Assembly (NCBI RefSeq): GCF_000258765.1
Contig: NZ_AJLT01000002.1
Coordinates: 38,726 to 102,725, forward strand
DNA length: 64,000 nt
Direction: 5' to 3'
Source of the DNA: Gillisia marina
Lineage (GTDB): Bacteria; Bacteroidota; Bacteroidia; Flavobacteriales; Flavobacteriaceae
Both the position numbers and the translations under genes were made by a program. The notes under the pieces were generated by a model. The model searched no databases. It was not told the origin of the DNA and saw only the letters and a list, made by a program, of their open reading frames with translations. Each line of letters starts with the position of its first letter. Within the stretch, counting starts at the first letter, position 1. Positions 34,289 through 61,790 of the stretch are shown piece by piece.

Positions 34289-34289
34289 C

Positions 34290-36654: not shown

Positions 36655-36761
36655 GTTAAATTTTCGTAATACGTTTTACTTATCGGTTACTTCTGTTTCA
36701 CAAATACTTTTGGTGAGACATCTGGCAAAAAACCTTCATGATTATAGGTCTACTTGTGATG

Positions 36762-39547: not shown

Positions 39548-41011
39548 TTATTGTATTTAAAAATTACTTGTTGAGTTAACCCGCTATATTCAGTTCTGAT
39601 TTTTTCTTCGGACAAAAGATTCTTTACAATACCTTTTACCATTGAATTATTAAAATCTATCTCTTTTTTGTTTAAAATATCTTCAATTTGTGCTATTGTG
39701 AATTCTTGGTACCCAAATTGACTTTTAATTATTTGCTCTAGCTTCTCGATTGTTAATGATACATAAGTAGGTTTAAATCCTTTTTTACCTAAAGTTTTTC
39801 CCGAATTACTTTCCTCTTCAAATTGAGAAATATTTACCTTACTCAAATCCAACTCTCCTTTAAAAGCTTTCTGGCTAAGACTATCATATAGGTTAGTAAT
39901 TTCCCTCAAACTAAATTCTAGGTTGTATTTAACAGATTCAGTATGGGCAAGTATTCTAGCAAATTCATTTTGAAGTGGAAGGGGAGGGATAGGTATCCTT
40001 AATTTTTTTAGGGCTCCAACATTAAAGTGCTTGTGAATACCACCAACCTCTTTAGATGTAACAATTCTTTTACCTATTTCAGAATTAAAGAAATAAACTA
40101 GATATTGCGGATTCATGATCTCATGATTTGGTCTAGAAATGATCAGGTCAATACAATTACTACCCTCTAATTCTTTTGGGATTATCGCTGCTGTCCCAGT
40201 ATTTCCAGTTCTTACAAATACTACATCTCCCTCTTTTAAAATAGATTTTGCTAATAATTTTTGATTTGACTCTTCTGAAAAATAAACTACATCCGTTAAA
40301 TCAATTCTATTAGGCTTAATATTTAACGATCTTAGCGCTAAAACTCCATCTTTAACGTAATGAGATGCAGGTTTGATAACAACTCCTACAGAAAGCTTCT
40401 GCAAATATTCACCTCCTGAAAGCATCTCAAATTCCTTTTCATTTCTAATAGGATCCCCAAATATCTCCAAAAAAGTAGATTTTAAAAACTCATCTAAAAG
40501 CTTAATACTTTCGTTTCTTTTTTTTAATTAGATTTTCGCAATTGGAAAGAACTTTGGCAATCCGTTTTTGATTTTCCAGAGAAGGTATAGGAATTAATGT
40601 TTTTCCAAGTTCTTTTGAAGAAATGTTTGGTTGAGCACCACCATAAGCATTTTGAATAATTTTAGCGCTTATAAAAGATAAGTATTGATATAAATAATCA
40701 TTGTATAATTTTGATTTGTCCGGTAAGAAACAGCCAACTCGTTGATTTTGATACGCAGGAATGTCTAAGTTGTATTTACCAATTTTTCCAATGGTGGCTC
40801 CTGACATTGCAATTAGAATGTCGTCTCTTCTAATTATGTAGGACTCAAATTTATCATTTGGTAAAATATATTTTGGTTTGGAAAGATCAACTTTACCATT
40901 TTTAATTTCACCAATTCGAACAATAGGAAGACCATTTTCTACGAATTCTGAGCTTTTAAAAGCATAACCATTCCGGATGGCACAAATCTTATTTAACGTA
41001 ATTTTCTTCAT
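39544..41011 (-). CDS. hsdS: Type I restriction specificity subunit, one frameshift
   Basis: The DNA-recognition subunit, about 489 residues when restored, with two target-recognition domains separated by a conserved helical spacer. TRD1 covers residues 1-150 (IPSLENQKRIAKVLSNCENLI ends it) and TRD2 about 175-350 (IPPLPLQNEFARILAHTES ends it). The T-run 40518-40525 has eight bases; seven restore IKKRNESIKLLDEFLKSTF and join the halves. An unusual C-terminal tail of about 90 residues (from QFEEESNSGK) extends beyond the usual HsdS end. It overlaps hsdM by 1 bp and the ATPase by 4 bp. Confidence 0.88.
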
Positions 41012-42612
41012 TAAATAAGCTCTTTCAATTCGTTTAACCCCTTAATTATCTGATGTTCTAATCCATTTTCACCAATTAGTTTTTCTAATATGACATTTGG
41101 ATTTTCATAAACAATTTCTTCAAATATTTCTTCTTTGTATTTATTGTAACTCAAATCATAGTCTTCTTCTACAATTTCGGCTTTCGAGACATAGAAAAAT
41201 TTCATTTTCCCAGTTCTGTCATTTTTTTCTGGATCAAAGGGGTTTTGAAATTCTTTAACAATGTCTTGCAGGTCTCCATGACCGTTTTCGTTTTTTGAAC
41301 GTTTATCATCCAAACTGTAGCCATCCGATTGCATGTCATAAAACCAAACATTTTCAGTTTCTCCGCCTTTTGTGAAAATGAGTAATGCTGTACTTACACC
41401 TGCATAGGGTTTAAAAACACCACTAGGCATACTAACAACAGCTTTCAATTGGGAGTTTTCAATCATTAATTTTCGAGCATCTTGAAATGCTTTACTAGAA
41501 CTGAATAAAACTCCTTGCGGAATAACAATTCCAGCAGTTCCTCCCATTTTTAGCATGTTGTAGATACGCTCTATAAATAGAAGTTCAGTTTTAGTCGTTT
41601 TTAGCTGTAACTCCTCATTTATATCTCCTTTATCTATACTTCCTGTAAAAGGCGGATTTGCCAACACTACATCGTATTCTGAAGTTTCATAGTAGCTTTT
41701 GCTTAAAGTATCTTTATAATCTATTTGAGGGCTTTCTATACCATGCATCATTAAGTTCATTAAGCCCAAGCGAACCATTGTTTGGTCTATATCGTAGCCT
41801 TGTAAACTACTACCTAAAATATCTTTTACTTCTTCGGTTAATAAAGCATTTCGGCTACTGCGAATAAAACCATCTTCGTCTGGTTCCTGCTTATCTTTTT
41901 CTTTATCTAATTGTGTCACCATATATTGATAAGCACCTAATAAAAATCCTCCTGTTCCGCACGCAGGATCTGCAATACGTTGCCCTAATTTTGGGTTGAC
42001 CATTTCAGCAAGCAATTTGATGATATGTCTTGGCGTTCTAAACTGTCCGTTTTTTCCTGCGGAAGCAATTTCGCTTAACAACATTTCATACACATCTCCT
42101 TGAATATCTTGGAAATCCTGACCGTTTTCTGTAGCATCTTGCTCCATAAGGTCAAAAATCTCATCAATACTCTTAACAGCTTCTAATAACAACGATGGTT
42201 TTGGAATAATGAACACAGCATTTCTCATGTGTTTTACAAATGGAGATTCCGCAGTATCTAATTGTTTAATAAAAGGAAACACATAACGTTGTACATGTTG
42301 TAGCATTTCTTCTGCAGGCAAACGTTTATAGTTGCTCCAACGCAATTCTTGTGTGTCTATTCCGTTTTGTTTGTTTTCTTCGTCTTGTTTTGTAGAGTAA
42401 AAAACACCATCAAATTTTGAAGTATATGCATCTCCAGTAAATTCTGCATCAGACTGGTTCTTTAAATCATTCTCATCCAGTTTTTTCATAAATAGCAAGT
42501 AGGTAATTTGCTCTATAGCTGTTAGGGGATTCGAGATACCACCAGACCAGAATTTATTCCAGAGGTCATTTATTTTTGATGCAATTTGAGGATTGCTATT
42601 GATTAAGCTCAT
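41011..42612 (-). CDS. hsdM: Type I restriction-modification DNA methyltransferase
   Basis: A 533-residue N6-adenine methyltransferase. The N-terminal HsdM helical domain is followed by the SAM-binding motif ADPACGTGGFL near residue 217 and the catalytic NPPF motif near residue 318. It is uninterrupted, unlike hsdR and hsdS beside it. It starts 1 bp after hsdR ends and its stop overlaps the hsdS start, so HsdR, M and S are produced from one message. Confidence 0.95.
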   Translation of the reverse strand: MSLINSNPQIASKINDLWNKFWSGGISNPLTAIEQITYLLFMKKLDENDLKNQSDAEFTGDAYTSKFDGVFYSTKQDEENKQNGIDTQELRWSNYKRLPAEEMLQHVQRYVFPFIKQLDTAESPFVKHMRNAVFIIPKPSLLLEAVKSIDEIFDLMEQDATENGQDFQDIQGDVYEMLLSEIASAGKNGQFRTPRHIIKLLAEMVNPKLGQRIADPACGTGGFLLGAYQYMVTQLDKEKDKQEPDEDGFIRSSRNALLTEEVKDILGSSLQGYDIDQTMVRLGLMNLMMHGIESPQIDYKDTLSKSYYETSEYDVVLANPPFTGSIDKGDINEELQLKTTKTELLFIERIYNMLKMGGTAGIVIPQGVLFSSSKAFQDARKLMIENSQLKAVVSMPSGVFKPYAGVSTALLIFTKGGETENVWFYDMQSDGYSLDDKRSKNENGHGDLQDIVKEFQNPFDPEKNDRTGKMKFFYVSKAEIVEEDYDLSYNKYKEEIFEEIVYENPNVILEKLIGENGLEHQIIKGLNELKELI

Positions 42613-42613
42613 A

Positions 42614-45401
42614 TTAGGCTACAAATTTGTCGGTTAATGTTAGTATGTCTATTATTTCTTTAGGTGAAAATATACCTCGAACCCCTTTTGGATGAATTAT
42701 AGTAAAGGGTGCATTTATTAAATCTCTTTTTTTAATAGAGCCACGTTCAATAATATAATTCTTCAACAAGTTTAAAAACTCTATTTGTCTAGAAGACAAA
42801 TAGGTGTGTTCTGTTATAAATTGGCTGACTGCTTTACTAACTTGGTCATCAAAACGTTCCAAAATTTCAATACCCAGGATATGTTTTATAAACTGTATTA
42901 ATTTAGCATTTTGATGATTGTAAACTTTACGTAATAAAGCTTCGGTAATGTGTGGGTCTGTTTCGTGTAATTCTTCTGCTAATGTTTGTGCATCATCTTC
43001 AGTAATAGACTGACCTTCTTTTAGTTTTTGTAAGATTGGGTTGCGCTTAGTGAGTTCTTCAACCTTAGCCTCAACCATTTCTCTATATTTAGTAATACTT
43101 ACTGCTTCGTTTTGTGGACCAAATTCTACCATCTCTTTGGTTTTTAAAACATCCTCTAAGTTTAATCTGGTTGCTCCCAAAGGTAGTGTTGTTGGTTCTC
43201 TAAAATGAATTAAAGGAGAAATAGTTTTGGCTAAAACATCGAAACCAGCATCAGTAATTGTATTCCAAAAATGATTTTTAAGCACTTGATTTATATAGGT
43301 TTTATGCTTTGCTACACTATTAATAGTTAAAGGTAATTCGCTTACAATGTTTATGATGTTTTCTTTAAGCGTATTAAATTGATCTGTTTCTTCCGCAAGA
43401 TGCGAAATGGAAATTTCTAATACATCTTTTTCAAAACGCATGGCTTTAAAATTAACTTGCGAAACAGCTCTAAATAGTGGTTTGATGGTTTGTCTTAAAT
43501 AGGTAAAACTTTCGTTGTTTAGATTTTTCCAGAAATCAGTATTTTCTACCAAAGCTAAAACTGATTTTGCCTCTTGTATAACAACAGATCTAGTGGGTAA
43601 ATCTAGAATCTGTTCTCTAAGTTTATTTATCTCCTTAAGAGCAATATCTCTTTCATCTAGTTCTAGAGCGAGTTCGATTTTATCTAAGCGTAACCCAAAC
43701 AATCTAACAGGCAAAGGTATTTGTGTTTTCGATTCTTTTCCCTTTGGGTTTAATTTGAAATATTCAAAGTTATCCCAACAATCTAAAATTAAAAAGTTGT
43801 CTTTTTCTGGACACCAAGGTTTTATTTTGGCAGGCTCGAGCAGTCTTGTCCCACGACCAATCATTTGCCAAAACTTAGTATAGGAATACACAGGTTTTGC
43901 GAATACGAGATTTACCAATTCTCTAACATCAATTCCTGTATCTAACATATCTACGCTTATGGCTATTCTGGGCATATCGTTATTAGTAAACTGATGCAAT
44001 AAACCTCCTTTGCCATATACTCTAGGATCATCGGACACCATAACTTTTGCTAAATCGCCTGTGTATTCCGGATACAATGCATCAAAAATCTTTTCAATAC
44101 GTCTTGCATGCGCTATTGTTGCACAAAAGAAAATAGTCTTGCCAGGAAGCACACCATTTGGGTCTTTAATAGACTCTTCCATAAACTCCTTAACAATGGT
44201 AACATTAGTTCCCTTGTTAATTACTGCTTTTTCAAGATCTGTTCCTTCAAAATTTATTTCTGCGACTTCTTTTCCTTGTAAAATAAGTTTCTTTTGGTCT
44301 TCTAAACTTATAGTTCTTTTGCTAATTCCTTCCTGTTGAAACTTTGTTTGAATTTTCATGACTTGAAAATTACTCAGATAGGGTGGAATGTTATTTACCG
44401 CTTCTTCATAAGAATAGGCAAACGTAGGCAAACCATCTTCACACTCAAATAATTGGAAGGTGTTATGATCTATAACATCTGTTGGCGTTGCAGTTAAACC
44501 CAACGTAGTTGTATTGAAATAATCTAAAATCTCTTGGTAGGTGCTATAAATAGAGCGATGACTTTCATCCACAACGATTAAATCAAAAAAAATGTGGCGA
44601 TAATGTGTTTCGATCATCTCTAACAATGTTTAGCATTGTTGGATAAGTTGAGATATATATTCGTCTATCTGTAGCAATATTTTTTTCTCCGAGTTTTGGC
44701 CAACAAGGTTCGTTAGGCAAAAATTCTTTAAAAGCCTCTAAAGCTTGATCTCGCAACGCAATTCTATCTACTAAAAACAATACACGCTCTGCCCATCCAG
44801 ACCTCATAAGGGTATCGACTAATGCAACACATGTTCTAGTTTTCCCTGTTCCTGTAGCCATAACCAAAAGAAACATTTGACGTTTTCTTTCGATTCCTTC
44901 CATCACTGAACGAATAGCTTGAATTTGATAATCGCGACCGGCAATGCCTACATTTATTAATTCAGTTGCTAACGGCTTTCTATTTTTTCTAATGTATAAA
45001 TAGCGCTCTAAATCGTCACGCCTTGGAAAACCAATTACTTTTTTTGGCGGATAGTTTCCTAAATCCCAAAAGAAAATATCATAGCCATTCGTATAAAAAC
45101 AAAAAGGTAATTCGCCATCAGATTCATTTTGAATATTTAAACAGTATTGTTTTGCTTGCTCTCTACCTAATTCAGCATCTTTGGAAGTTTTTTTAGCTTC
45201 AACGACAGCTAATGCTTTTCCGTTTTTACCTAAAAGCACATAATCACTGAATTGATTTGAATAGCTAGATTCAGGTTCATTTGCTACTGATCTTGAACCT
45301 AAACTAGATTCAATTATGACTTGAGTTTGGTCATTGATATTCCAGCCAGCGCTAAGCAGGCTCTTATCAATAATTTGTTTTCTTGTTTGTTTTTCGTTCA
45401 C
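42614..45401 (-). CDS. hsdR: Type I restriction endonuclease subunit R, one frameshift
   Basis: The motor/nuclease subunit, about 929 residues. The N-terminal nuclease has Asp53 (QFSDYVLL) and VEAK at 67-70. The SF2 helicase has Walker A ATGTGKT near residue 182 and the DESH box (VVDESHRS), followed by helicase motifs V and VI (QMIGRGTRL). The A-run 44585-44592 has eight bases; seven restore LSPHFFDLIVVDESH. It is the first gene of the whole restriction operon; about 140 bp separate it from the hipT-like gene upstream. The C-terminal EcoEI_R_C-like region is intact. Confidence 0.92.
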
Positions 45402-45539
45402 AAAAAATAATTAATGGTCTTTCTTAGTTAGAATATAAATATAGTGAACTAAAAATTTGACTCTAAAATTTCTTAAAGCAATTCCAAATTATCCTGTTAC
45501 TATACAGTAGAATCAAATTTTAGCAACTTCGATCTTTAC

Positions 45540-46472
45540 TTAAACCATTTTATTATTTATCAATTCTTTAAATTTCTCTTTTCGTTCTTGAGAAAGAAAA
45601 CTGCGATCTATCAATTCTGACCATTCCAGGATACCTTTTTCAATACGCTTCCAGAGATTTTCAATTGCCTTTTCTGGGATATGTGCTTTTAGCATGGCTT
45701 CATTAAAATCATTCTGCTTTAATTTTCGCTTTTTACCGTTAAGTGTTAGCGCTAGGTCTTCATTATCCTCCGGCATTAGCAGTTTTACGGCAAGCATGTC
45801 ATAAGCCGGTGCCAATTGATATAAATTGGATTTTGTGGATATTAATGAAAAGTTCTTTAAGTGCATATCATTATTACCAATTAGGTAAGACACAATAACC
45901 TGCTCATAAAAATGTACAACGTCCATCAGTCGATTTCCATTATACTTTAAAATAGCTCTGGCAATTTGTTCATAAGAGCCACGATATTTATGTTCGGTAA
46001 GCCGTTCAGTAAATTGACAGGCATCCTCCATGGCAAATTTATTGTTTTTCTGATCCCTATCTATTCTACGTGTTAGATATGCCAGCTCACCACCTTTCAA
46101 AGGAATTAGTAGGAAAGGAACTGTTGCAATTCCACAAACCTGAGCCATTAACATCGATAATGCCTCTATTTCCGGCATTTGTGGATATTGTGAATAAGGT
46201 GGTTTTAAAATATATTTACCATCCAAAGCTCCCACTATTGTTAATCTTCTATTTTCTTCTTGGTCTGTAAACCCTAATGAAAGTTTAGGCTGAACACCGG
46301 GCACCGTGATACGTTGTGTGATGTTTTCTTTTGCTAATGTTTCCAGTTCTGATATTGAGTAGGCTAATTTCAGTACTGGAGTATCGTTCTGCCAGAAATC
46401 TGCAAGACATTTAGGATGATAGAGTATTTCATCCTTTCCTAATGGTTGTAAACATGCTAAACAATTTTTCAT
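45540..46472 (-). CDS. hipT: HipT-like serine/threonine kinase toxin (HipA C-terminal part)
   Basis: A 310-residue HipA-family kinase that lacks the HipA N-terminal subdomain, which is encoded separately just upstream. A short Cys motif (CLACL...YHPKC, residues 4-22) opens the protein. The Gly-rich loop reads RITVPGVQPKLSLGF near 54-68, the catalytic loop GNNDMHLKNFS is at 199-209 (Asp202, Asn207), and the metal-binding YDML has Asp225. All kinase residues are in place. HipT of Escherichia coli phosphorylates tryptophanyl-tRNA synthetase; that target is only a guess here. It overlaps the HipS-like gene by 4 bp. Confidence 0.88.
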   Translation of the reverse strand: MKNCLACLQPLGKDEILYHPKCLADFWQNDTPVLKLAYSISELETLAKENITQRITVPGVQPKLSLGFTDQEENRRLTIVGALDGKYILKPPYSQYPQMPEIEALSMLMAQVCGIATVPFLLIPLKGGELAYLTRRIDRDQKNNKFAMEDACQFTERLTEHKYRGSYEQIARAILKYNGNRLMDVVHFYEQVIVSYLIGNNDMHLKNFSLISTKSNLYQLAPAYDMLAVKLLMPEDNEDLALTLNGKKRKLKQNDFNEAMLKAHIPEKAIENLWKRIEKGILEWSELIDRSFLSQERKEKFKELINNKMV

Positions 46473-46783
46473 AACGGTGTCACACTTATATTACCTATAC
46501 AATCTTTACAGGTGGCCATCAGTAATCCCATACGATCACGCGGATCCAATTTCCAGTTTTTTTGAGCGATATTTAATAACCAGCCCTCTGGTATTAACCC
46601 ATCAAAAAACGGAAATAGAAACTCGGCTTTAAAAGGCTCTTTTTGGAGTGGTAATGTCAAACTAACAGGTTTCTTAACCATACTTTCCAAATAAATTTCT
46701 TCATATTGAAAAAGATATCCTTCCTCGTTCTCGGATAGTAATCCGGCAAGAATATCATCAACAAAAATTTTAGCTTGTCTCAT
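46469..46783 (-). CDS. hipS: HipS-like protein (HipA N-terminal subdomain)
   Basis: A 104-residue free-standing HipA N-subdomain 1 (the Couple_hipA type): DDILAGLLSENEEGYLFQYEE, then SLTLPLQKEPF and FDGLIPEGWLL. In HipBST systems this small protein is separate from the kinase and acts as the antitoxin, while in HipAB it is fused. Its start overlaps the XRE gene by 14 bp and its stop overlaps the kinase start by 4 bp, so expression is tightly coupled. Confidence 0.85.
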   Translation of the reverse strand: MRQAKIFVDDILAGLLSENEEGYLFQYEEIYLESMVKKPVSLTLPLQKEPFKAEFLFPFFDGLIPEGWLLNIAQKNWKLDPRDRMGLLMATCKDCIGNISVTPL

Positions 46784-46997
46784 TTGATATAGGCTGAGGT
46801 TTCAAAGTAGTGCCAAAGAAAAGCAATACCTGATTTACTTTATCGGTCATTAAATTGGGCTTACCTTGTTCCAGATCACGAACAAAACGTAACCCCACTC
46901 CCGTCAGGTCGGACAACTCTGTTTGAGTCATTTTATTCGCTTTCCTTTGTTTTCGCACATATTCGGCAATAGGATTGCTACGATTCCATTTTTCCAT
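46770..46997 (-). CDS. hipB: HipB-like XRE-family regulator
   Basis: A 75-residue helix-turn-helix protein (MTQTELSDLTGVGLRFVRDLEQGKPNL) of the HipB type. It is the first gene of the hipB-hipS-hipT set and presumably represses it by binding the palindrome at 47041-47058, 44 bp upstream. It lacks the C-terminal Trp-binding tail of E. coli HipB. In HipBST systems HipB boosts HipS-mediated neutralisation. Confidence 0.85.
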   Translation of the reverse strand: MEKWNRSNPIAEYVRKQRKANKMTQTELSDLTGVGLRFVRDLEQGKPNLMTDKVNQVLLFFGTTLKPQPISNETS

Positions 46998-47142
46998 AAA
47001 TATACCTTTACGGGTGCAATATAATAAAATTATTGTATTTTATACCTGAATAGGTATATTATATTTAATAATTATTAAATTATATCATTTTGGGTATAGT
47101 TTAATAATTTATTTCTTGCACAAATTTTACTACACCTAACCA
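46998..47142 (-). promoter_or_regulatory. hipBST promoter/operator region
   Basis: The perfect palindrome TATACCTGAATAGGTATA (47041-47058; 7-bp arms, 4-bp centre) resembles the spaced half-site operators of HipB proteins. Extra half-sites are TATACC at 46988-46993 and GGGTATA at 47091-47097. The region is extremely AT-rich. Autoregulation by HipB is inferred. Confidence 0.6.
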
Positions 47143-47245
47143 TGCGCTTGGTACTGGGTTATTTTTATAGCGTACGTGAAGTTAAGCTTAAACTAAAAAA
47201 AGTAGGTGTCACATCTGACATATGGAATGAGAATTACAGTAATAT
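47143..47245 (+). repeat. Structured imperfect repeat, copy 1
   Basis: About 100 bp alignable without large gaps to 55004-55105. The strongest core is TTTTTATAGCGTACG followed by GAAGTTAAGC (47162-47187). ACACCTA upstream (47132-47138) can pair with TAGGTGT downstream (47204-47210), so it may fold as a hairpin. The arrangement of a YYYAAC-like box before and a GTTAAGC box after recalls integron attC sites, but no integron integrase is present. The rest of 47246-47399 is featureless. Confidence 0.6.
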
Positions 47246-47399
47246 TTTTACCATATTACTTAGATTTTCAAGTATTTACTAATACTAGACTTCATTCGTC
47301 AGGGTTTATTGTCATTATAAATTTTTTTTTTCTCTTCCAACCACTTGCAGTTCCTTCTTTTATTTTGGATTGGTCAAACTCTCTAAGATGACAAAACCA

Positions 47400-47726
47400 C
47401 TATTTAATTTCACAATAAATAACTTTTGTTATCATATCAGGCTCTATGTTTAATAGCTTAGCAAGCCTCACAATCTCTCCAAGTGTAAATTTATCTGGAT
47501 GACTTAATTTAGCCATATATCTACCGTAATTTATCCCTAGCGAATTAGCAATTTTGGTTGGATATAATTCAGCAAGCGTATACATCTTCTTAATTCTACC
47601 CGTCTCAAACATTGATCCGATGGAAAGAAGTGTTGGGTCTTTATGGTGGTCGTCTTTTGTCATGGGGTGCTTTCTTAACCCTAAAATGACAACTAATTCA
47701 TTTATGGTACTGATTAATATACTCAT
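47400..47726 (-). CDS. Small HTH-like regulator divergent from the sigma/dead-Cas12f operon
   Basis: Up to 108 residues; the start is uncertain (ATG at 47726, or ATG at 47663 giving MTKDDHHKDPTLL). The C-terminal part (KIANSLGINYGRYMAKLSHPDKFTLGEIVRLAKLLNIEP) has the helical spacing of an XRE-like DNA-binding domain. Flavobacterial mobile elements commonly carry relatives of it. It is transcribed away from the sigma factor gene with a spacer of under 75 bp, so it is a candidate regulator of that operon, which is an inference. Confidence 0.7.
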   Translation of the reverse strand: MSILISTINELVVILGLRKHPMTKDDHHKDPTLLSIGSMFETGRIKKMYTLAELYPTKIANSLGINYGRYMAKLSHPDKFTLGEIVRLAKLLNIEPDMITKVIYCEIK

Positions 47727-47798
47727 AATAAATTAAAATTTGTATTTTCAGTATAATTGTTTACATTTAATAAATTATTACTTACTAATAGTAATTTG

Positions 47799-48593
47799 AT
47801 GAGAAATTCTATTGATAATAATTTCGATTTATTAAAAAAAGGAGATCCAATTATATTGGCACACATTCATGCTAGGTACAGTCGAAGTATCTTTTGGATA
47901 GGCCGCCAAATTCTTGAGGATAATTTTGTGGTAGAATCTCTGGTACAGGATTCCTTTTTAAAATTATGGATCCACAGGGATCGTATAGAATCACCTAAGC
48001 ATATTTTCTATTTTTTACGAATGGTTATGAAAAGAGAATGCTATTCATACTATACAACTCCAAAAACACAGTTTTTCAGAAGAGTTAATTCGTTGGATAA
48101 TTATGAGAAATATCAAGACTATTTAGCAGGATATGATCCTATAAAAGATGAGGAAATATTAAAGAATCAAGAAGAGACACAAAAAACCTTTGACCAAATT
48201 AAAAAAGTCTTGCCGCTTTTAAGTCCAGAAAGAAAACATTTGATTGAACTCTGTTTAGAATATGGCTTTCAATATAAAGCTATTTCAAAAGTAATTGGAA
48301 CAGGTATTACCGAAACCAGTAATGAGGTTAAGTTGGCTATTGAGGATATTAAAAATATTATCAATATAAAATGCACGCATGAAACCAAACAAAACCCAGT
48401 TAATGAAAGGATAATTCAAGTGGTAATGACCGAAGAGCAGGAAAAAGTATTGCAACTAAGATGTGAAAAAAAATATTCTTTTGCTTCCATTGCAAAAGAA
48501 CTTAACCTGTCTCAAAAGGAAGTCCACAAGGAATTTATGACTGCTTATAAGTTTATAAAGAAGAAGCACCAACAGCAATTAAAAACGGCTTAA
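47799..48593 (+). CDS. Sigma-70-family (ECF-like) factor linked to a dead Cas12f
   Basis: A sigma factor of 264 residues from the ATG at 47799 (an upstream TTG at 47757 seems unlikely). Region 2 is visible at about residues 20-85 ([50 protein letters not shown]). Region 4 lies at about 140-185 ([26 protein letters not shown]). An extra HTH-like unit closes the protein ([36 protein letters not shown]). No anti-sigma gene is adjacent. The stop is 1 bp before the start of the Cas12f-like gene, so the two are made together. In the reported RNA-guided transcription systems the dead Cas12f recruits such a sigma factor to DNA. Confidence 0.85.
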
Positions 48594-48594
48594 T

Positions 48595-49692
48595 ATGGAA
48601 AAGTCAACTATTAAACTGACTAGAAAGATCCAGCTATTGGTGGACCTTCCAACTAAAGAAGAAAGAAAGGAAGCCTTGGATAAACTTTATGGGTGGCAGA
48701 ACAGATGTTTTAGAGCAGCTAATCTCATCGTTACCCACCTCTATGTACAGGAAATGATCAAGGAATTCTTTTATCTATCAGAAGGGATAAAGTATAAATT
48801 GGCTGATGAAAAGAAAGATAAATATGGAATCCTGCAACGCTCCCGTATTAATACTACCTACAGGGTAGTATCTAATCGCTTTAAAGGTGAAATCCCTACA
48901 AATATATTATCTAACCTAAATAAAAATTTAATCACTTCCTTCAATAAAGACAGGCCGGAATATTGGAAAGGTGAACGGTCACTAATGAATTTCAGAAGGG
49001 ATATGGCTTTTCCATTTGATATAGAATTGATTATTGGATTACATTTTAATGAGGATAAAAAAGCTTTTTGTTTCAGTTTAAATAAAATTCCTTTTCGCAC
49101 CTATTTAGGCAAGGATTATACCGATAAACGAAAATTACTGGAGCGAGTCATAAAAGGAAATATTAAGCTTTGTACATCTCATATGAAATTAAAGGATGGC
49201 AAAATATTCTTTCTTCCTGTATTCGAAATTGAAAAAGAAAAGCATATCCTAAAACCAGAAGTGATAGCAGAGGCTTCTCTATCCCTAGAATATCCTATTG
49301 TAGTGAAAACCGGTAATACTAAACTTACTATTGGTACCAAGGAAGAGTTTCTATACAGAAGGTTAGCTATACAAGCAGCCCATAAAAGGGCACAGGTTGG
49401 GGCTACCTATTCCAAATCAGGCAAAGGGGTGCAAAGAAAATTAAAAGCGGTACAAAAGTTCCGAAATGCTGAAAGTAATTATGTGCACTATCGTATACAC
49501 GTATACAGCAGAAGGCTAATCAATTTCTGCATTAAACACCAAGCTGGAACGCTCATTTTATTAAATCAGGAGGACAAGATCGGGATCGCTAAAGAGGAGG
49601 AATTTGTATTAAGAAACTGGAGCTATTATGAGTTAATGACTAAAATAAAATACAAGGCAGAGAAAGCAGGTATTGAACTTATCATCGATTGA
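48595..49692 (+). CDS. Nuclease-dead compact Cas12f/TnpB-like RNA-guided protein
   Basis: 365 residues, homologous in its C-terminal half to the RuvC core of TnpB/Cas12f. YRRLAIQAAHKRAQ near 254, the coiled KAVQKFRNAESNYVHYRIHVYSRRLINFC region (284-312), and NWSYYELMTKIKYKAEKAGI (341-360) align with the active family's conserved blocks. The RuvC-I position reads YPIVVKTGNTKL (233-244), with no catalytic Asp in a GxDxG context. The RuvC-II position reads LILLNQED, where the usual LEN/LED glutamate is replaced. The protein ends at GIELIID, before the zinc ribbon and RuvC-III Asp. It should bind RNA and DNA but not cut. No TnpA is nearby. It is translationally linked to the sigma gene. Confidence 0.85.
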   Translation: MEKSTIKLTRKIQLLVDLPTKEERKEALDKLYGWQNRCFRAANLIVTHLYVQEMIKEFFYLSEGIKYKLADEKKDKYGILQRSRINTTYRVVSNRFKGEIPTNILSNLNKNLITSFNKDRPEYWKGERSLMNFRRDMAFPFDIELIIGLHFNEDKKAFCFSLNKIPFRTYLGKDYTDKRKLLERVIKGNIKLCTSHMKLKDGKIFFLPVFEIEKEKHILKPEVIAEASLSLEYPIVVKTGNTKLTIGTKEEFLYRRLAIQAAHKRAQVGATYSKSGKGVQRKLKAVQKFRNAESNYVHYRIHVYSRRLINFCIKHQAGTLILLNQEDKIGIAKEEEFVLRNWSYYELMTKIKYKAEKAGIELIID

Positions 49693-49830
49693 GAATTTAA
49701 TTACGAGGGTGCTTGTACACCCACAAGGTGAGGTCGATAATCACACTCACTAAATGCACATAGCATATACAACGCGTGAGCTCCCTTATTTTGAAATACC
49801 TAAATTTTTGAAGACATGAAGTAAATAAGA
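49693..49830 (+). ncRNA. Candidate guide RNA of the dead Cas12f (scaffold plus guide)
   Basis: Immediately after the stop codon the plus strand can fold into GGGTG-CACCC (49707-49722) and GTGAG-CTCAC (49728-49750). A second GTGAG (49776-49780) could instead pair with the CTCAC, enclosing 49751-49775. TnpB and dead-Cas12f loci encode their guide RNA right here, with the guide at the 3' end. The exact ends and the guide boundary are not readable from sequence alone; the guide may follow 49780. No CRISPR repeats are present. Confidence 0.5.
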
Positions 49831-50176
49831 CAGAGCTACGGTAAAATTTTCTAAAAAGCCTACAATTTTTATTTATGGTAACGGTGCAAGGTTATCAGTG
49901 CCTCATATTTTTACTGGAATACCTGATTTAGGCCTAAATCCAACATTTTAATAAAAATGAATTTGACGTTGACTCAAAAATAACCTATACTCATTATAAT
50001 TTTCTTGAAGTTCTGCTGCTACTTTATATATTATTGCGAAATATTATAGAGGAAGTCCAAAATCTACACAATATCTCAAATTGAATTCCTCAAAAATAAG
50101 ATGCTTTTCAACAAATATTTTTCTGTAATGGTAATTTTCCATAAATATCATTTAAATAATAATTTAGCACTTAATC
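49831..50176. other. Spacer after the candidate guide RNA
   Basis: About 345 bp of AT-rich DNA between the guide-RNA candidate and a convergent unknown gene. I see no ORF of note, no repeat array and no strong terminator. Confidence 0.5.
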
Positions 50177-51398
50177 CTATTTCCTGTCAATTAATGCCTC
50201 ATAAACCAAATATCTTAAATATTCCTTGCCTTCAATCTCAAGACCTTCTAACATTATGAGCTTATTGAAAGTTTCAAGCAATTGAGTAGTAGTTTTAATT
50301 TCAACTAAAAGGAATTTTTTCATACCCTCCTTATGCCTTTTAATTTCTTCAGTTGTGGAGTTTTCAATTTTAATCCTTACTAGATGAAGTATTTGGCCAT
50401 GATTTTTAATTTTGGATATCTTCTGTACTTCCTGAAACAAATTTTCGAAAATTTCAGATGATTTCGTAAAATCATTAAGGTTATCGAATGCTTTTTTAGG
50501 ACCTGTACCATGTGTGATACTTAAAACTTTAGACTTAATATCCTTAGGTTTAATATATAAATTCTTTTCTTCGTTATTCTTGTCTTTATATAGAATAGAA
50601 GCAACTGTCGAAAATTTTAGAGCTTCCTTTTTTATTTCATCATTAGAAACCTGAATCGTGTTTTGAAGATGACCTACTCCTTCAATGCTTTTCAATTCAG
50701 TAGTTTTAAAGAATATCCTAATTGCCGACTCATTAAATTCACTAAAAGCTATTTCGTATTCCGTATCGGAATTTAAACTTTCAAAATGGAGCTTAAGTAG
50801 AGCTAATACAAAAGCTATATTGTTATTATAGTTGAAATATCTATCTTCTGAAATAATTGCACGTAAATAGAATTCATCTTCTTTAGTATCATGAATGAGC
50901 CTGTATCTTCTCACATGCTCCGCTTTAGATTTTAGACTTTCTAAATTCTGGTTGAGAATATCTCTATATCCTTTTTTAAGTAGACTTGAAGCATATTTAT
51001 CAATATTGTATAAGTTTTGAAAGAAGTCTCTTTCTCCTGAATGAATAGGAATGGCTTTAATTTCTTCTTTTCCTGATCCATTAAAATATTCGGACTCACT
51101 TAAATTATTAAAGACCAATCCAAATTCCTTCTCATAATTAAATTGAATATCTTTTAGATTACTTCTTAAATCTATCTTTTTATAACGAGAATCCATTGAT
51201 TTAAGGATTGTGTAAAGCGTGGAAGATCCTTTTATAGATATAAATCGATCTTTCAGATTTGAAATATCAAAATATAATTTAATCTCTTCTAGATATTCAC
51301 TATCGTAAATTAAGGTTAGGAGCTTGTCTACCCCAATTCCATTATCTCCTTTCTTGAACTCGTCACTATTAAGTGTTCTTTTTTTTAAATTTTTCCAT
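50177..51398 (-). CDS. Hypothetical protein, one frameshift
   Basis: About 406 residues when restored. The long open part starts internally at 51196, but the frame is open upstream to ATG at 51398 if the T-run 51379-51386 has seven bases rather than eight (giving MEKFKKRTLNSDEFKKGDNG). The segment HVRRYRLIHDTKEDEFYLRAIISEDRYFNYNNN weakly recalls the DUF932 (plasmid/phage) pattern, but I do not claim it. No signal peptide or membrane segment is seen. It probably forms an operon with the small basic protein upstream. Confidence 0.7.
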
Positions 51399-51409
51399 CA
51401 GGTTTTATT

Positions 51410-51538
51410 TTATTTGTTGCCTTTACTATCCTTTCGATTACTCCTTACATGTGGTTTGACTTCAATGGTCTTTCCATTTACTTTTCTTTTGTGCCCGGGA
51501 ATTCTATTAAACTTTCTCCCATTTGAATCTTGTGCCAT
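51410..51538 (-). CDS. Very small basic protein
   Basis: A 42-residue protein, MAQDSNGRKFNRIPGHKRKV followed by NGKTIEVKPHVRSNRKDS. The GHxRKVNGKxIxVKPHxRS pattern is one I have seen in short conserved basic proteins, which supports a real gene despite its size. It is 11 bp upstream of the restored hypothetical gene and in the same direction. A nucleic-acid-binding role is plausible from its charge but unproven. Confidence 0.6.
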   Translation of the reverse strand: MAQDSNGRKFNRIPGHKRKVNGKTIEVKPHVRSNRKDSKGNK

Positions 51539-51676
51539 ACTTTTTTTTTTTAAAATATTTTGACTTTATTTACAAATAGACCCTACCAATTATAAATTAG
51601 ATCAGTATCATTTGTAGTAAATTGAGGTGTTTCCTCATCTATATACTTATACTGATATATCCTTTTTGGTATATAA

Positions 51677-52353
51677 ATGAAACCTACAAAAGAATCTGAA
51701 ATTGATTTCGCAGAAATAAAAAGTTTTGAGTTGTTAGATTATATAGCAATGAAAGAAGATTTTCCCGAAGAAGCGACACAAGCTTTGTAGAGTTCTGTTC
51801 GAGATTTGAAAGAGATATTCTTCAAAAAGCCGAGATTTATTGTTCTAAATATAATTATAATGAAGTTACGGCCCTACGAGTAGCTAACTGTACTTTAAGG
51901 AGGGTCTGGAAATACCCTACTTTTAAAAAAGAAAAAGCCAAATCAACTAATCCAGAAAAAGCAATTCTCCTATGGATGTATCCCATCATATTTAGACAGG
52001 TAATTAAATTTGGAGCGGAGAATAAATGCGAGGAGGAGGAGGAAGAAGACCTTGAAATAATAGAAACCGTAGATCAATTAATTAAAGCGCATGGTATTAC
52101 CGATTTAGAAAGTAAAAGAGAATTGAAAACTAAATTAGATACAGTTGAAAGAACTCTAGAAGGGTTAAGTACCAAACATCAAATAATATATTTGACTTAT
52201 AGAGCTTATGAGCGTGATAATAAAAAATTACCAAGAACACTTTTAGAAAAACTTAGAAATTCATTAGACTTAACTCAAAAATCAATCAACACTTATAAGA
52301 ATCAAGCTGAAAAGCATATTCAAACTTATCTTAATTTTTTAAATAATGGGTAA
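51677..52353 (+). CDS. Sigma-factor-like protein, one frameshift
   Basis: About 225 residues when restored. It starts MKPTKESEIDFAEIKSFELL and breaks at TTT 51784-51786; one extra T restores QAFVEFCSRFERDILQKAEIYCSKY and joins the reading frame that ends at 52353. The helical pattern (ALRVANCTLRRVWK, then a C-terminal LSTKHQIIYLTYRAYERD) fits region 2 and region 4 of sigma-70-family factors, although distantly. The C-terminal part contains a six-Glu stretch. It overlaps the next gene by 8 bp, forming a three-gene set with it and an ImmA/IrrE peptidase. Confidence 0.65.
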
Positions 52354-52684
52354 GCCAAAAAATATACAGAAAATTAAATTTACTGAGCTTGATAGCTGGC
52401 TCGGTTCAGCAGGTTTTATTTATCCTCAAAATGAATTTGAATTGGCAAGATTTAACAAGTTATATGAGGATTTTGATTATAAATTAAAGTCAGAAAAAAT
52501 TGATCCTTTGGCTATCATTGGAAATAAGTTTTTAGAAAAATTTGAAAATTCTGAACCCAAAATCATCCAATTAAAAAAAGAAGCTGAATCATTAAGAATG
52601 GTGGCCAGAAAAGGAGCAGAAAAGATCCCACAGCATATCATTGATAAAATGCTTAATAAGCATAAGGAACAGAATGATAATTGA
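52346..52684 (+). CDS. Hypothetical protein of the ImmA module
   Basis: A 112-residue helical, charged protein (ends KIPQHIIDKMLNKHKEQND) with no recognisable domain. It overlaps the sigma-like gene by 8 bp and the ImmA/IrrE gene by 11 bp, so the three are translationally coupled. It may be the substrate or adaptor of the peptidase, an inference from the arrangement only. Confidence 0.7.
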   Translation: MGKPKNIQKIKFTELDSWLGSAGFIYPQNEFELARFNKLYEDFDYKLKSEKIDPLAIIGNKFLEKFENSEPKIIQLKKEAESLRMVARKGAEKIPQHIIDKMLNKHKEQNDN

Positions 52685-53462
52685 AAATGATCAAATAAAA
52701 AGTTTTGCGGAAGAAATAGCAATGGAATATCCTGAATCTGAGACCAATTTAGAACGAATTGTATCAGAAGAGGGATTACAAGTATTTTATGATAGATATG
52801 GACTGAATACTTTTGACGGAATGACTATGTATGATAAAAATAAATTCTTTATTCATATTAATACCACCCAAGGAAATAAGCCAAAAACACCTAGAGGAAG
52901 GTTCACTTTAGCTCATGAGTTAGGACATTATTATATAGACTCTCATCGTATAGGTTTAAAAGAAGGCATTTTGGCTCCTCATCCGTCAACTCTGAATTAT
53001 AAGCATTTCTCGCGTATTGAAAGAGAAGCCGACTATTTCGCATCTAATCTGCTTATGCCAGAGTCCAGGTTTCAAGAAGCTTTCTATAGAAAAAAGTTTA
53101 GTCCGGATTTATTGGACCATTTATGCATTAAGTTCAATGTAAGTAGAACGGCATGTGCCTTTCGCTTTGCCGATATAGGAAACCATCCAATTATGATTGT
53201 TTATTCTGAAAATAATACTGTAATATGGAAATACAGCAGTAAAGATTTTAAATATAAATTTTTACTTTATGAAAAGAGAGTGCCTGAAAATACAGTAATG
53301 GGAGAGTACTTTAACGGAAAACATAATGAAACCTATAAAACAGAAAAAATTTGGGCAGTTGATCTCTTTAATTACATAGCTGATGAGGATCTTAATCTAA
53401 ATGTTAATGAATACTGTATTGCATATAAAAACAAAACTCTAAGTCTCTTTTGGTTTGTATAA
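52674..53462 (+). CDS. ImmA/IrrE family zinc metallopeptidase
   Basis: A 262-residue peptidase from the ATG at 52674 (an earlier start at 52641 would overlap the previous gene more). The HELGH zinc motif is at residues 81-85 and the third ligand is in READYFASNLLMPE. ImmA/IrrE enzymes cleave repressors to switch on mobile-element or stress genes. Here a sigma-like gene lies in the same operon, so cleavage of a regulator controlling it is a reasonable model. Confidence 0.88.
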   Translation: MIIENDQIKSFAEEIAMEYPESETNLERIVSEEGLQVFYDRYGLNTFDGMTMYDKNKFFIHINTTQGNKPKTPRGRFTLAHELGHYYIDSHRIGLKEGILAPHPSTLNYKHFSRIEREADYFASNLLMPESRFQEAFYRKKFSPDLLDHLCIKFNVSRTACAFRFADIGNHPIMIVYSENNTVIWKYSSKDFKYKFLLYEKRVPENTVMGEYFNGKHNETYKTEKIWAVDLFNYIADEDLNLNVNEYCIAYKNKTLSLFWFV

Positions 53463-53538
53463 ATAGATTTATTAAAAAATGGGGATGCGAAGACAAAAGC
53501 CATCAAAACCCCTCCCTTTTTAAATTAAATAGGATACT

Positions 53539-54648
53539 TCATTTAATCTCTTCAAGCAATTTATAAGGATCTATATTAATAAAAAGCTCATCGTTGCTAG
53601 CAGTGAGTGGATCCAACCAGTTAACTTTTTGATAACCAAATAATACAAGCTCTTTCATTTCCTCAGTTAGATCTTTATTCTCATCACATGCGTTCAGAAA
53701 AACTCTTAGCTTATTGGCCTCATGCCAGAGATCAGACTTTTGTTTGATGAAACGTAGCTTTTCGATTTCCTCCTTTTGTGATTTTTCTCTTTCATCCTGC
53801 TTCTTCATTTCAATGGCCTGTTTCTTTAAACGCTTTTCATTTTCAACTTTCCATTTGCGTTTCTCCTTTGCCATTTGCTCTAAAAAGGTGATGATGGTTA
53901 GTAGTTTTTCTGCGAGAGTTTTAGTAGAAGTTTCCTGCCATTCCTTTTCAGTAAATTCTCCAGCAAGAAAACTCAAAAGTCCGATAGAAATTAATTCACT
54001 TCTTCTATATCCTGGTTTTTCCGTCTCATAAACCCTTTTTGACCTTTCCCTCATCCGGATACCTATTTCTGTTCCTTCTATAACAACGTAAGATCGTTCA
54101 TAACAAAATAGAAAATAATGCCCTCTAGCCTTCATCACCTTTATAAAAGTGTTCAGAAAACATAAGGCTCTCTTATAGGGCTTTCCAGAAGCACTGACTG
54201 AAATTCTCCCATAATTATATCTTTTAGTATAATCCCTGCAATTATTTACAATCGGATGATTTTTAGGATTATCCGACAGCATTTCCATGATAATTGGATC
54301 AGGATTTTTAGGAAGTCGTTTAGGAACCTCCCAATCAGAAACCATATGAACATCATTTATAGTAAGGTTTTTTCCTGAAGAATTAGAATTCACTGAGTTT
54401 TCTCCGGTGCGAATTAACAATTCAATTTCACTCTTGGATTTTGTTTGTGGTAATAGTGGTTTGTTAATCTTTTTACCAAATTTTCTTTTCATCCAGTAAC
54501 CGTTAGGCGGCAAAGGAATTTTATTTATAGTGCATATATCCTTAAAACTACTATAAGAAACCATGTAATTTTCGGTGAAATAGGTAATAGGTTTCTCCCA
54601 AACTAATTGATATAATTCTTCTCTGGTTAATTCTATTCTGACAGGCAT
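53539..54648 (-). CDS. Conserved hypothetical protein with N-terminal HTH-like motif and coiled coil
   Basis: 369 residues. The start (REELYQLVWEKPITYFTENY, then SFKDICTINKIPLPPNGYWMKRKFGKK) matches a widespread unnamed family that opens LYELVW-P and has IPxPPxGYW; the segment looks like a homeodomain-like DNA-binding unit. Residues 255-310 are a Lys/Glu coiled coil. Function unknown. It is monocistronic on the minus strand. Confidence 0.8.
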   Translation of the reverse strand: MPVRIELTREELYQLVWEKPITYFTENYMVSYSSFKDICTINKIPLPPNGYWMKRKFGKKINKPLLPQTKSKSEIELLIRTGENSVNSNSSGKNLTINDVHMVSDWEVPKRLPKNPDPIIMEMLSDNPKNHPIVNNCRDYTKRYNYGRISVSASGKPYKRALCFLNTFIKVMKARGHYFLFCYERSYVVIEGTEIGIRMRERSKRVYETEKPGYRRSELISIGLLSFLAGEFTEKEWQETSTKTLAEKLLTIITFLEQMAKEKRKWKVENEKRLKKQAIEMKKQDEREKSQKEEIEKLRFIKQKSDLWHEANKLRVFLNACDENKDLTEEMKELVLFGYQKVNWLDPLTASNDELFINIDPYKLLEEIK

Positions 54649-55557
54649 GATAAGCTTCGTTTTAAACTAATTATACATTGGATAAATTTCGATCTCTAAT
54701 TTAAACGAGAATTTAATATTTTTAATGTTTAGTTGAAGATTGCGGTTAAGTAACGGCTAACACCTAGCAGATGATGGGAACGGTTTTCGGCTGATAAGAA
54801 CAGCATAATCTGGAATGAATCTGCAAGTAAAATTCCGGGATTTCTGGGATTTTTTTCATTAAATCCCTTTTATTATTGGTTCGAAATAGAACAAGATTTA
54901 ATTTAGGTGTATTAAGTTAATATTTTTTTTAGCATACAACAGTTAAGATAAAATCTTAGAAAAAATCATAAAAACAAATGCCCCAAATCTACCATAACTA
55001 ATCTGCGCGTGGTTCCTGTGCTGTTTTTATAGCGTACGGGAAGTTAAGCATAAAGTAAAAACAGCAGAGGGCGCATCATACTTGTGATTAATTTTACAGT
55101 AAAAATTACCATTTCATTAATATTTCCAAGACATATACATTAAAACACTGTATACCATCTATTATGAAAATCATATTATATAACTCAGCATAATTTTGTG
55201 CTGCAATTACAACATCAAGTTAGAGGGGAATAAAACTTTGACCTTTCAGTTTCCATTGCTTGGTAATTTTACATAAATAAGGAATGCCCAATGAAGGTAA
55301 AGTAGTTTACTTTGCCTTCATATTCTAAATTCGAATATGGAATAGTTATGTTGTGTAAAGCTTTTTAGAACAGGAAAAAAGAGCATAGTTAGGGGTGATA
55401 AATTGCAATAAGTTCTGTTCATTTTGCAAATAATCTGACTTACTTGCAATATTATAATCGCTATTGCAAATTTTTATGTTATTCTGCAATAGTAGAAAAA
55501 AACCATTAACTGTGAAATTAGGACGATTTGCGGCAAAGCGATTTGTTATGACAGCTC
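54649..55557. other. Long intergenic region with structured repeat copy 2
   Basis: About 900 bp without a convincing gene. Bases 54740-54810 include a GCTAACACCTAGC phrase of the kind that borders small gene cassettes in flavobacteria (from memory). Bases 55004-55105 hold copy 2 of the structured repeat. A weak minus-strand ORF at 55346-55579 overlaps the next gene and is probably not real. Confidence 0.5.
55004..55105 (+). repeat. Structured imperfect repeat, copy 2
   Basis: It matches 47143-47245 in the same orientation, with core TTTTTATAGCGTACG then GAAGTTAAGC (55024-55049). GCTGTTTTTA (55019-55028) pairs with TAAAAACAGC further on, and TGCGC (55004) with GCGCA near 55075, giving a long imperfect stem. 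The conserved loop and compensating stems suggest a selected RNA or single-strand DNA structure. Confidence 0.6.
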
Positions 55558-56007
55558 TTATTTTTTCTCCTCTAACCACTGCTTAAAATCATCTTGAACT
55601 TCTGGTTTTTCTGAGAAATATTCTTGATATCTTTCCTTGTTAGTTTCCATGAGGATCTTATAAAGTTCAAACTTTTCGTTCTGTCTTTCTTGCAAGGAAT
55701 ATCCAAAATAACCCAAGAGACTTAATAAAACAATACCCAGTGAACAAACAAGGATAAGTAGGTAATTAGGAATTATCCGTGCATATTTTAATTTCTTATC
55801 TATCTCTTTAAGCACTTGATCCTTTAAATTATTTTCCTTTTGCTGTTGCCCTAAGAAAATATTTAAATTCTTTTCGAATGCCTCGGTGCTAATGGGAATA
55901 CTTAAAGTGGATAGTTGTTTTGAAAGCTCCTCAAGTTTTATAATAGAAGCTTTAAAATCCGCCATCTCATCAGTCATGAGCTCCATAATTTCGTCTAGCT
56001 TTTTCAT
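55558..56007 (-). CDS. Small membrane protein downstream of the relaxase
   Basis: 149 residues. An N-terminal helical/coiled region (KLDEIMELMTDEMADFKAS, a motif that repeats Leu/Glu) is followed by one transmembrane helix (YLLILVCSLGIVLLSLLGYFGY, residues 97-118) and a charged C-terminal tail. It begins 12 bp after the relaxase stop. Genes of this kind follow mobB in Bacteroidota mobilizable elements; it may help dock the relaxosome, which is inference. Confidence 0.72.
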   Translation of the reverse strand: MKKLDEIMELMTDEMADFKASIIKLEELSKQLSTLSIPISTEAFEKNLNIFLGQQQKENNLKDQVLKEIDKKLKYARIIPNYLLILVCSLGIVLLSLLGYFGYSLQERQNEKFELYKILMETNKERYQEYFSEKPEVQDDFKQWLEEKK

Positions 56008-56019
56008 TGTTTTAATTCT

Positions 56020-56886
56020 TTAAAACCCTATTCCCACATCTAAACTTTTCTTAATTACTTGTTTCACTAAACCTTTGGCTATGCTTGTTGCCATATTAGT
56101 ACTTATTTGCACTGTTTTATCCAGGAGCTTTAAACTGCTAGGAACTTCTTTCATTCTTGATATTCCTGAATTTTGAGTGATCTCCCCAATGAGTTTACCT
56201 CCCGTCATAGATCGGTGAACATCACTTCCCTTCAAATTCACTCCTTTGTATTCAAACCGAAAGCCTTGTAATTGATTTGACTTATTGATACTGGGAATCA
56301 CCTTTACCTGATGCACTTTCATCTTGCTGATATATTCATCTATAGATTTTGGTCTGGTTTCTAGAACTCGGTCATTGATATGTTTGATGGCCATTCGCTG
56401 CCCTTTTAATTCAAGTAGCTTTTCCTGCTGCACTTCCCGGACTCTTGTGAGTCCGAGTTGTTTTGCAACATTATCTGCGGCTAGCTGACTTCGTTTACCA
56501 TTAAAACTATCGTTATAGGCTTTTCCATCAAAACCAATCCTATTGACATATACATGTACATGGGTATGCGCCTTATCCCGATGTACAAAAGCAATGGCTT
56601 GTCTATTTTTTAGTTCCATTTCCTTCAGGAATAGCCTGGTGATCTCTTGAAGTTGTGATTTGCTCATCTGATGTCCGTCTTCTACGGTAGGACTTAGAAT
56701 AAAACTGAGGGTATTATTGACACATCGCTCATTTTGCGACTGAATGATCTTAAACTCTTCGGTGATCTCCTTTGGGGAGTCACCAGCTAGGTGCTCTTTG
56801 AAAACCACTTCAGCATCTTTTTCTTGGTTCCACCCATAATCAATAGATGCTCCCGTCCTTGCTATGGAATGTCCTTTCCCGATCAT
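56020..56886 (-). CDS. mobB: Relaxase / mobilization nuclease (MobB type)
   Basis: 288 residues of a MobP-like relaxase. The three-histidine metal motif HTHVHVYVNR is at 107-116 (His107, His109, His111, Asn115), and the nucleophile region near the start has Tyr17. It nicks oriT and pilots the strand during mobilization by a helper conjugative element. It overlaps the restored mobC by 4 bp (ATGA). Confidence 0.9.
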   Translation of the reverse strand: MIGKGHSIARTGASIDYGWNQEKDAEVVFKEHLAGDSPKEITEEFKIIQSQNERCVNNTLSFILSPTVEDGHQMSKSQLQEITRLFLKEMELKNRQAIAFVHRDKAHTHVHVYVNRIGFDGKAYNDSFNGKRSQLAADNVAKQLGLTRVREVQQEKLLELKGQRMAIKHINDRVLETRPKSIDEYISKMKVHQVKVIPSINKSNQLQGFRFEYKGVNLKGSDVHRSMTGGKLIGEITQNSGISRMKEVPSSLKLLDKTVQISTNMATSIAKGLVKQVIKKSLDVGIGF

Positions 56887-57180
56887 TTTCTGAAATTTTT
56901 TAAATGCCCTCTAATCTCTTCTGCCAATTGCATTACTTCCCTAGTCAACTGGGGATTGCTTTTTTTTAAACATATTACCGATTCGACTAAAGTTGTTTTT
57001 ATATTGAATCAGAAGCTGGTAACATTCCAACTGTTCCGGAGTAATCCGCTCTACAATATTTCTTTCAAAAGCCGTAGAACGCAAATATTCTGAAAGGGAA
57101 ATACCTGCCCTTGCCGCTCTTTTTTTGAGTAGCTTTTTCTCGTAGATCGAGCAGCGTATTTGGATGTATTCCCGTTTCAT
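56883..57180 (-). CDS. mobC: MobC-like relaxosome accessory protein, one frameshift
   Basis: About 98 residues when restored. The N-terminal ribbon-helix-helix (KREYIQIRCSIYEKKLLKKRA, GISLSEYLRS) and the conserved NFSRIGNM motif are typical of MobC. The T-run 56960-56967 has eight bases; seven give FKKSNPQLTREVMQLAEEI and a stop that overlaps the relaxase start by 4 bp, which confirms the correction. It helps the relaxase open oriT. Confidence 0.87.
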
Positions 57181-57295
57181 TTTTTCTTTTAAATCTTTGC
57201 AACCTCCGGGAGCAAAGCAAGATTGTCATGACAATGACACATCTTGCTTTGCTACTCAATATGAAATTCTCCCCAGTGGAATTTACTCGGCCATA

Positions 57296-58183: not shown

Positions 58184-58230
58184 TTTATTTAATTGCAATT
58201 ATGCCTCTTTGATAGTTTCCATGTTCTCAA

Positions 58231-58484
58231 CTTTTTGTCATCACTTTTATTTTTGATGACAGTTTGATGACAAAACGATGACGGCCTTACCTCCTACTAT
58301 TACTGGTCTAACAAGATTCTGTCATCATTCACCAAAAAAATGAAGAATTAAGAGGGGTTTTTCCTGAAAAACTGGGTTCATTTTGATGAAACGATGACAA
58401 CCCACCAAACCCCCTCTAAAACCAAAGGTTTCCGTGTCATCACTTTGTCATCGATTCATCGTTTTCGTCTATATCCCTATAAAT
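58231..58484. repeat. Iteron-like GTCATC/GATGAC cluster, candidate replication origin or operator
   Basis: Eight exact GTCATC or GATGAC hexamers lie within 216 bp (58237, 58255, 58266, 58277, 58321, 58393, 58436, 58447), several in the larger context GATGACAAAACGATGAC. The cluster fills the spacer between the primase and helicase genes. Such clustered short repeats next to replication genes usually bind an initiator. Confidence 0.55.
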
Positions 58485-61304: not shown

Positions 61305-61354
61305 TTCTATTGAAGACCTAATGAATTATCTTTGTATCAATAATTTTTCATAAA

Positions 61355-61702: not shown

Positions 61703-61790
61703 AGGAATAGTTAATAGGAGAGCTCTTTAGTATCGAACCCAGAATTCTGAAACATCTTTGCGCAAATTACTCTTCTACTTTATAGCGCAT

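Follow-up and report, generated by a model that had tools for sequence, protein, structure and literature searches.

What does a sigma factor gene do when the gene beside it encodes a Cas12f homologue that has lost its catalytic residues, and on which genes would such a pair act? We addressed this question for a pair found in the window, by which we mean the whole 64,000-nucleotide stretch of Gillisia marina DNA analyzed here, and for its relatives in other genomes.

A sigma factor gene adjoins a nuclease-dead Cas12f gene

The two genes of the pair are:

47799..48593, plus strand: ECF-type sigma factor (sigmaE partner), 264 aa; matches PDB 9n9q_C and Sigma70 domains
48595..49692, plus strand: nuclease-dead Cas12f homologue (dCas12f), 365 aa; matches PDB 9n9c/9n9m/9n9o/9n9q and PADLOC Cas12f; RuvC Asp and Glu replaced

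The sigma frame runs from an ATG at 47799 to a stop at 48593 and the dCas12f frame from an ATG at 48595 to a stop at 49692, leaving a gap of 1 bp. Sigma70_r2, Sigma70_r4 and Sigma70_r4_2 were found above the Pfam cut-offs in the product of the first gene, which matched chain C of PDB 9n9q, 'RpoE', with an E value of 8.3e-103. The same entry contains dCas12f as well as RpoE. The top PDB match of the 365-aa protein, covering its residues 1-364, was 'Nuclease-deactivated Cas12f' (9n9c/9n9m/9n9o/9n9q, E 2e-191), with 78% identity to 9n9m_A over the whole length. According to their titles, 9n9c is a dCas12f-gRNA complex and 9n9m a dCas12f-gRNA-DNA complex with a partial R-loop. The protein also matched PADLOC Cas12f (1.5e-50) and, under that model's cut-off, NCBIfam guided_TnpB (1e-14). 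Given the poor structure predicted for dCas12f from 15 sequences (pLDDT 67.6, pTM 0.46, TM-score 0.40 to 9n9m), identities and entry titles alone were used from the comparison with the 9n9m structure.

When the protein was aligned to the active Cas12f 9nzo_B (506 aa), the RuvC-I Asp ('GVDLG') of the latter fell on Ser228 ('AEASLS') and the RuvC-II Glu ('QMER') on Leu323. The alignment stopped at residue 414 of 506, 92 residues short; the C-terminal part that is absent from the window's protein is what we take to be the zinc ribbon and RuvC-III. AEASLS (residues 225-230), at the position of the RuvC-I motif, was invariant in all 15 aligned sequences, the window's included, each of them 364 or 365 aa long. 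The first-pass annotation of this DNA had described a sigma-70-family gene 1 bp before a 365-residue gene, the loss of both RuvC residues with a C-terminal truncation, and a likely RNA-guided activator. The reading-frame coordinates and the 9nzo_B alignment bear out the first two points, and the near-full-length matches to solved dCas12f and RpoE support the third. Again as annotated, the surroundings of the pair showed neither a TnpA gene nor a CRISPR array, but a single guide RNA gene 11 bp past the dCas12f stop had been missed.

Homologues of dCas12f numbered 1169 at E<=1e-3. Loci in named genomes came to 76, mainly from flavobacteria, with two Pedobacter among the others, and a sigma gene adjoined dCas12f in 78 of 83 loci, the exceptions including loci that are cut off upstream. 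No close relative turned up in the plasmid and phage collections (5 and 1 records, all below 60% identity), and positions 46900-50400 gave no Rfam match at E<=1. On sequence grounds, the window's pair is an additional member of the dCas12f-sigmaE family and no new kind, because both its proteins match dCas12f and RpoE of the solved structures.

A guide RNA gene follows dCas12f

Two features make up the guide RNA gene:

49704..49773, plus strand: guide RNA scaffold with three hairpins; 88.8 bits, E 4e-19, with a covariance model of which the window's scaffold is itself one of 61 rows
49774..49792, plus strand: guide GCGTGAGCTCCCTTATTTT; fits GCGTGRGCTYNCTTA with 0 mismatches; its 3' end (49792) is predicted from the point where the 3' flanks of relatives diverge and from a T run

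In relatives the scaffold starts with GAGGGTGCTTGTACACCC and lies directly 3' of dCas12f in most loci. The covariance model, like that of the leader described below, was built from loci that were afterwards searched again with it; it found 127 copies in 83 of 84 sources, with multiple copies (2 to 6) in 25 of them. The window's genome had no second copy at E<=1e-3. The scaffold hairpins covaried: in the alignment, which comprised 61 of 102 distinct guide RNAs, 9 of 17 pairs changed on both sides, a count reached by 0 of 500 shuffles.

Guides within 2 mismatches of GCGTGRGCTYNCTTA accounted for 57 of the 127 copies (54 of 83 sources) compared to 2 of 2540 shuffled guides, with a consensus that was written after guides and leaders had been looked at. 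The remaining 70 guides, including those of the F. taeanensis group, fell outside this class at 2 mismatches. The window's guide belongs to the GCGTGRGCTY class, and the guides of the F. taeanensis group to the TTGTGGGATA class.

Some relatives arrange their guide RNA genes differently from the window. In L054, L057, L058, L061 and L068, one dCas12f is followed by an array in which guide RNA genes number four to six; the arrayed guides differ, and many have no match to the SusC leader. A guide RNA gene in L155 (near position 1500; G031:C1:1067986-1068055) lies far from the sole dCas12f match of G031 and shares 93% identity with that of the window across 111 bp.

A guide-like sequence lies in a conserved leader of relatives

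In relatives, a GCGTGRGCTYNCTTA-type sequence with a G before it, in the sense of the coding strand, sits inside a conserved structured leader. This leader is found ahead of SusC-type receptor genes as well as of many sigmaE-dCas12f operons. The 29 genomes searched contained at least 28 exact GGCGTGRGCTYNCTTAT matches, at least 2 of these in guide RNA genes (L084, L104). Among 79 leader candidates found by regular expression, 32 lay before sigmaE genes, 21 before SusC-like genes and 26 elsewhere, 7 of the last group being judged not to be leaders. The SusC-like N-termini behind leaders had Plug and CarbopepD_reg_2 domains in 8 of 8 tested and the SusC/RagA signature in 5 of 5 tested.

The leader model detected the leader in 22 of 24 genomes reached via dCas12f loci, and in 10 of 26 genomes from the window's genus, family and order, six of which (G039, G046, G051, G061, G063, G065) had contributed nothing to the rows of the model. 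By source, the leader was found in 37 of 84 at E<=3e-27, a count that excludes two weak matches (one in L012 at E 6e-4 and an additional one in L010 at E 5e-3). It lay at most ~250 bp upstream of the sigma gene in 36 of the 37, the exception being L064 at ~1.9 kb. Four dCas12f-carrying genomes (G031, G042, G017, G021) gave no leader, and seven genomes (G030, G032, G039, G046, G051, G061, G063) had a leader and no dCas12f match. The leader is therefore independent of dCas12f and has a role of its own. In G063 (no dCas12f match), L167, L176, L180, L184 and L189 it stood before short genes for products of ~110-120 aa, and in L085, L089 and L095 small genes that look HTH-like by eye diverge from the leader before SusC genes.

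Over 14 nt, guides differed from leaders of their own genome by 0-2 mismatches in 17 of the 19 genomes compared. This fit was no better than that to the leaders of other genomes: the summed smallest mismatches were 25, compared to 25.2 expected (19 genomes, p 0.52; 21 had entered, G020 and G022 were dropped as no leader was extracted, and the leaders came from the collected loci only). Rfam gave, for three leader-bearing loci, a single chance-like microRNA match away from the leader. A literature search, in which sources were available in part, turned up no description of the SusC leader.

The leader resembles a transcription attenuator

Covariation was counted in an alignment of 42 of the 47 kept leader copies, the same alignment from which the structures were derived. 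A small upstream hairpin and a long hairpin together had 22 of 42 pairs that changed on both sides, with 96.7% of cells paired (0 of 500 shuffles). An alternative hairpin, pairing GGCGTGGGCTCTCTTATCG with CGATAAGTTGAGTTCCACGCC and incompatible with the long one, had 6 of 24 such pairs, with 97.1% paired (4 of 500 shuffles), and was followed by a T run in most, not all, copies. In L103 the two structures folded with -43.3 and -29.7 kcal/mol, and 0 of 200 shuffles equalled either. The guide corresponds to the strand common to these two mutually exclusive hairpins. The TAAG of the terminator's second strand lay 48-52 nt past the G in 57 leaders (48 or 49 nt in 47 of them).

Just upstream of the leader, 34 of 42 copies carried TAnnTTTG, which PMC9723704 gives as the sigmaA -7 consensus in Flavobacterium psychrophilum. 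We infer that the region consists of a promoter, a leader RNA and a predicted transcription attenuator, the last because of the covariation, the two mutually exclusive hairpins and the frequent T run.

The module lies on a mobile island in a genome without a detected target

In the window's own genome, a draft that is 93.6% complete, no leader was detectable and no good G-preceded guide site was found. The first 14 nt of the guide had four matches there, the guide RNA gene and three sites inside reading frames that look dnaA-, M48-peptidase- and TolC-like by eye; all were rejected as targets. A leader candidate in the window at 59514, found by regular expression, was rejected as well: it is on the opposite strand of a helicase-like gene and folds no better than shuffles. 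The first-pass annotation had placed the targets outside the window. This agrees with the relatives, in which SusC-type receptor genes have guide-like sites upstream, but finds no counterpart in the own genome. With a draft of this completeness the target may be unassembled, and its absence does not exclude membership in the dCas12f-sigmaE family.

The module is carried by an integrative island, of which the following features are relevant here:

26275..63300, no strand assigned: integrative island of 37 kb; 17-bp direct repeat at tRNA-Leu
47400..47726, minus strand: divergently oriented gene for 108 aa; its product probably regulates the sigma-dCas12f operon and looks HTH-like, by eye alone
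56020..56886, minus strand: MobA/VirD2-type relaxase; Relaxase 3.1e-29
61808..63049, minus strand: tyrosine integrase; Phage_integrase 2.5e-17, Phage_int_SAM_5, Arm-DNA-bind_5

The direct repeat occupies 26275-26291 and 63284-63300, and its right copy overlaps the end of tRNA-Leu (63286-63368). Toprim primase-like and DUF5906 helicase-like genes are also encoded on the island. In L133, from the same genus, a sequence resembling the island's right end (90%) runs through the repeat into one resembling its left end (91%), which is how tandem islands or a circular junction would look. In L127, also from this genus, a relaxase gene and a helicase-like gene 93% and 92% identical to the island's lie beside that locus's own dCas12f.

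The minus strand of the island carries defence-like cargo at 30647-45401: a patatin-like phospholipase (PADLOC 1e-55), an McrB/McrC-like pair (by eye) and a PtuA-like ATPase (1e-50) accompanied by an HNH gene. The cargo also includes a type I restriction system, with the R subunit divided between two frames (42614-44626 and 44583-45401). At 45540-46997, likewise on the minus strand, a HipA-like gene in two overlapping frames is accompanied by a small HTH-like gene. A relative (90% DNA identity) occurs in L133 beside a broken dCas12f and the guide RNA of the latter.

Upstream of the window's sigma gene, the 108-aa gene stands where the leader would be. Its product had no match in Pfam or NCBIfam. 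Relatives of it (77-85% identical) were present in 9 of the 46 loci counted without a leader, some of which are on contigs that stop before the leader's expected place, and in 0 of the 37 loci with one; they adjoined the sigma gene in 8 of the 9. We infer that the 108-aa gene and the leader are alternative control modules for the same operon.

These observations bear on the possibility that the module is a passenger in this strain, an intact activator with no target here and a guide that fits only the leaders of other hosts. That neither leader nor site was found in the genome would be expected of a passenger, and broken dCas12f genes occur in two genomes of the genus (G037 and G043). However, both frames and the scaffold are intact in the window, the leader does occur in three genomes of the genus (G030, G032 and G039), and a target could lie in an unassembled part of the draft. 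We consider this reading a serious possibility, though one we would not expect to hold.

A possible RNA-guided bypass of the attenuator

Judging from the matches of its parts, we think it probable that the module acts as an activator: sigmaE, dCas12f and the guide RNA would assemble into one complex and bring RNA polymerase to DNA that matches the guide, and would in this way likely switch on the genes there, namely those of nutrient receptors. In the published dCas12f-sigmaE system the target is reportedly preceded by a 5'-G, and transcription is said to start ~46 nt downstream of that G. If the window's module behaves alike, its guide would bind the GCGTGRGCTYNCTTA-type DNA, preceded by G, in a SusC-type leader, and transcription would start at the beginning of the terminator's second strand. 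A guided transcript starting there would thus lack the terminator's first strand, and the attenuator would be skipped. The module would travel on the island and act wherever a host has such leaders, while the divergent 108-aa gene likely governs sigma-dCas12f expression in the window. Taken as a whole, this picture of an RNA-guided attenuator bypass, with a mobile island commanding otherwise shut SusC leaders from one flavobacterial host to another and with the activator's operon, in many relatives, placed under its own guide, is offered tentatively, as a candidate that may well prove wrong in one part or another.

The position of the guide within the leader also brings up an action on RNA, in which the guide mimics the attenuator's middle strand and base-pairs with leader RNA as it is being transcribed. 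Pairing with the terminator's second strand would lead to readthrough, and pairing with the antiterminator's first strand to a stop. Such a role would suit a guide that equals the strand shared by the two alternative hairpins. We nevertheless regard it as improbable, as the 78% identical protein was solved in complex with gRNA and DNA and the adjoining sigma factor points to initiation. The G before the site in inspected leaders suits a DNA motif too, though the structure of the leader also explains it.

The attenuator bypass, if true, would make RNA-guided initiation and attenuation parts of a single switch, one that a mobile element can pass from host to host. The leader is a concrete natural target candidate for the commonest dCas12f-sigmaE guide class seen among the 127 guides, and it is one element that SusC-type receptor operons have in common and, in many relatives, share with the activator's own operon. 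For a specialist, the surprise would be the link of this guide class to a SusC leader that resembles an attenuator.

Comparison with known systems

The protein family itself is already known from solved structures (PDB 9n9c, 9n9m, 9n9o, 9n9q); the guide RNA gene and the link to the leader are added here. Like the dCas12f-sigmaE system of these entries, the window has a 78% identical dCas12f, an RpoE-type partner directly upstream and a guide RNA downstream. It differs in that its module lies on an island at tRNA-Leu, that a 108-aa gene replaces the leader, and that its guide is of the GCGTGRGCTY class rather than the TTGTGGGATA class.

TldR proteins, nuclease-dead TnpB homologues, are similar in their inactivated RuvC nuclease, RNA guidance and control of genes, and are described as repressors, according to PMC13418256. 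Judged against that description, the window's protein is set apart by the sigma factor beside it and by dCas12f as its closest solved relative. That it is a TldR-type repressor and a chance neighbour of the sigma gene, as a nuclease-dead protein with a sub-threshold match to guided_TnpB (1e-14) might be, is very hard to reconcile with the 78 of 83 loci in which a sigma gene adjoins dCas12f and with two proteins that match chains of one PDB entry, 9n9q.

Trp-type transcription attenuators work by mutually exclusive hairpins. The leader of the relatives is alike in having such hairpins, the later one with a T run in most copies, and differs in that the shared strand is found on a distinct guide RNA.
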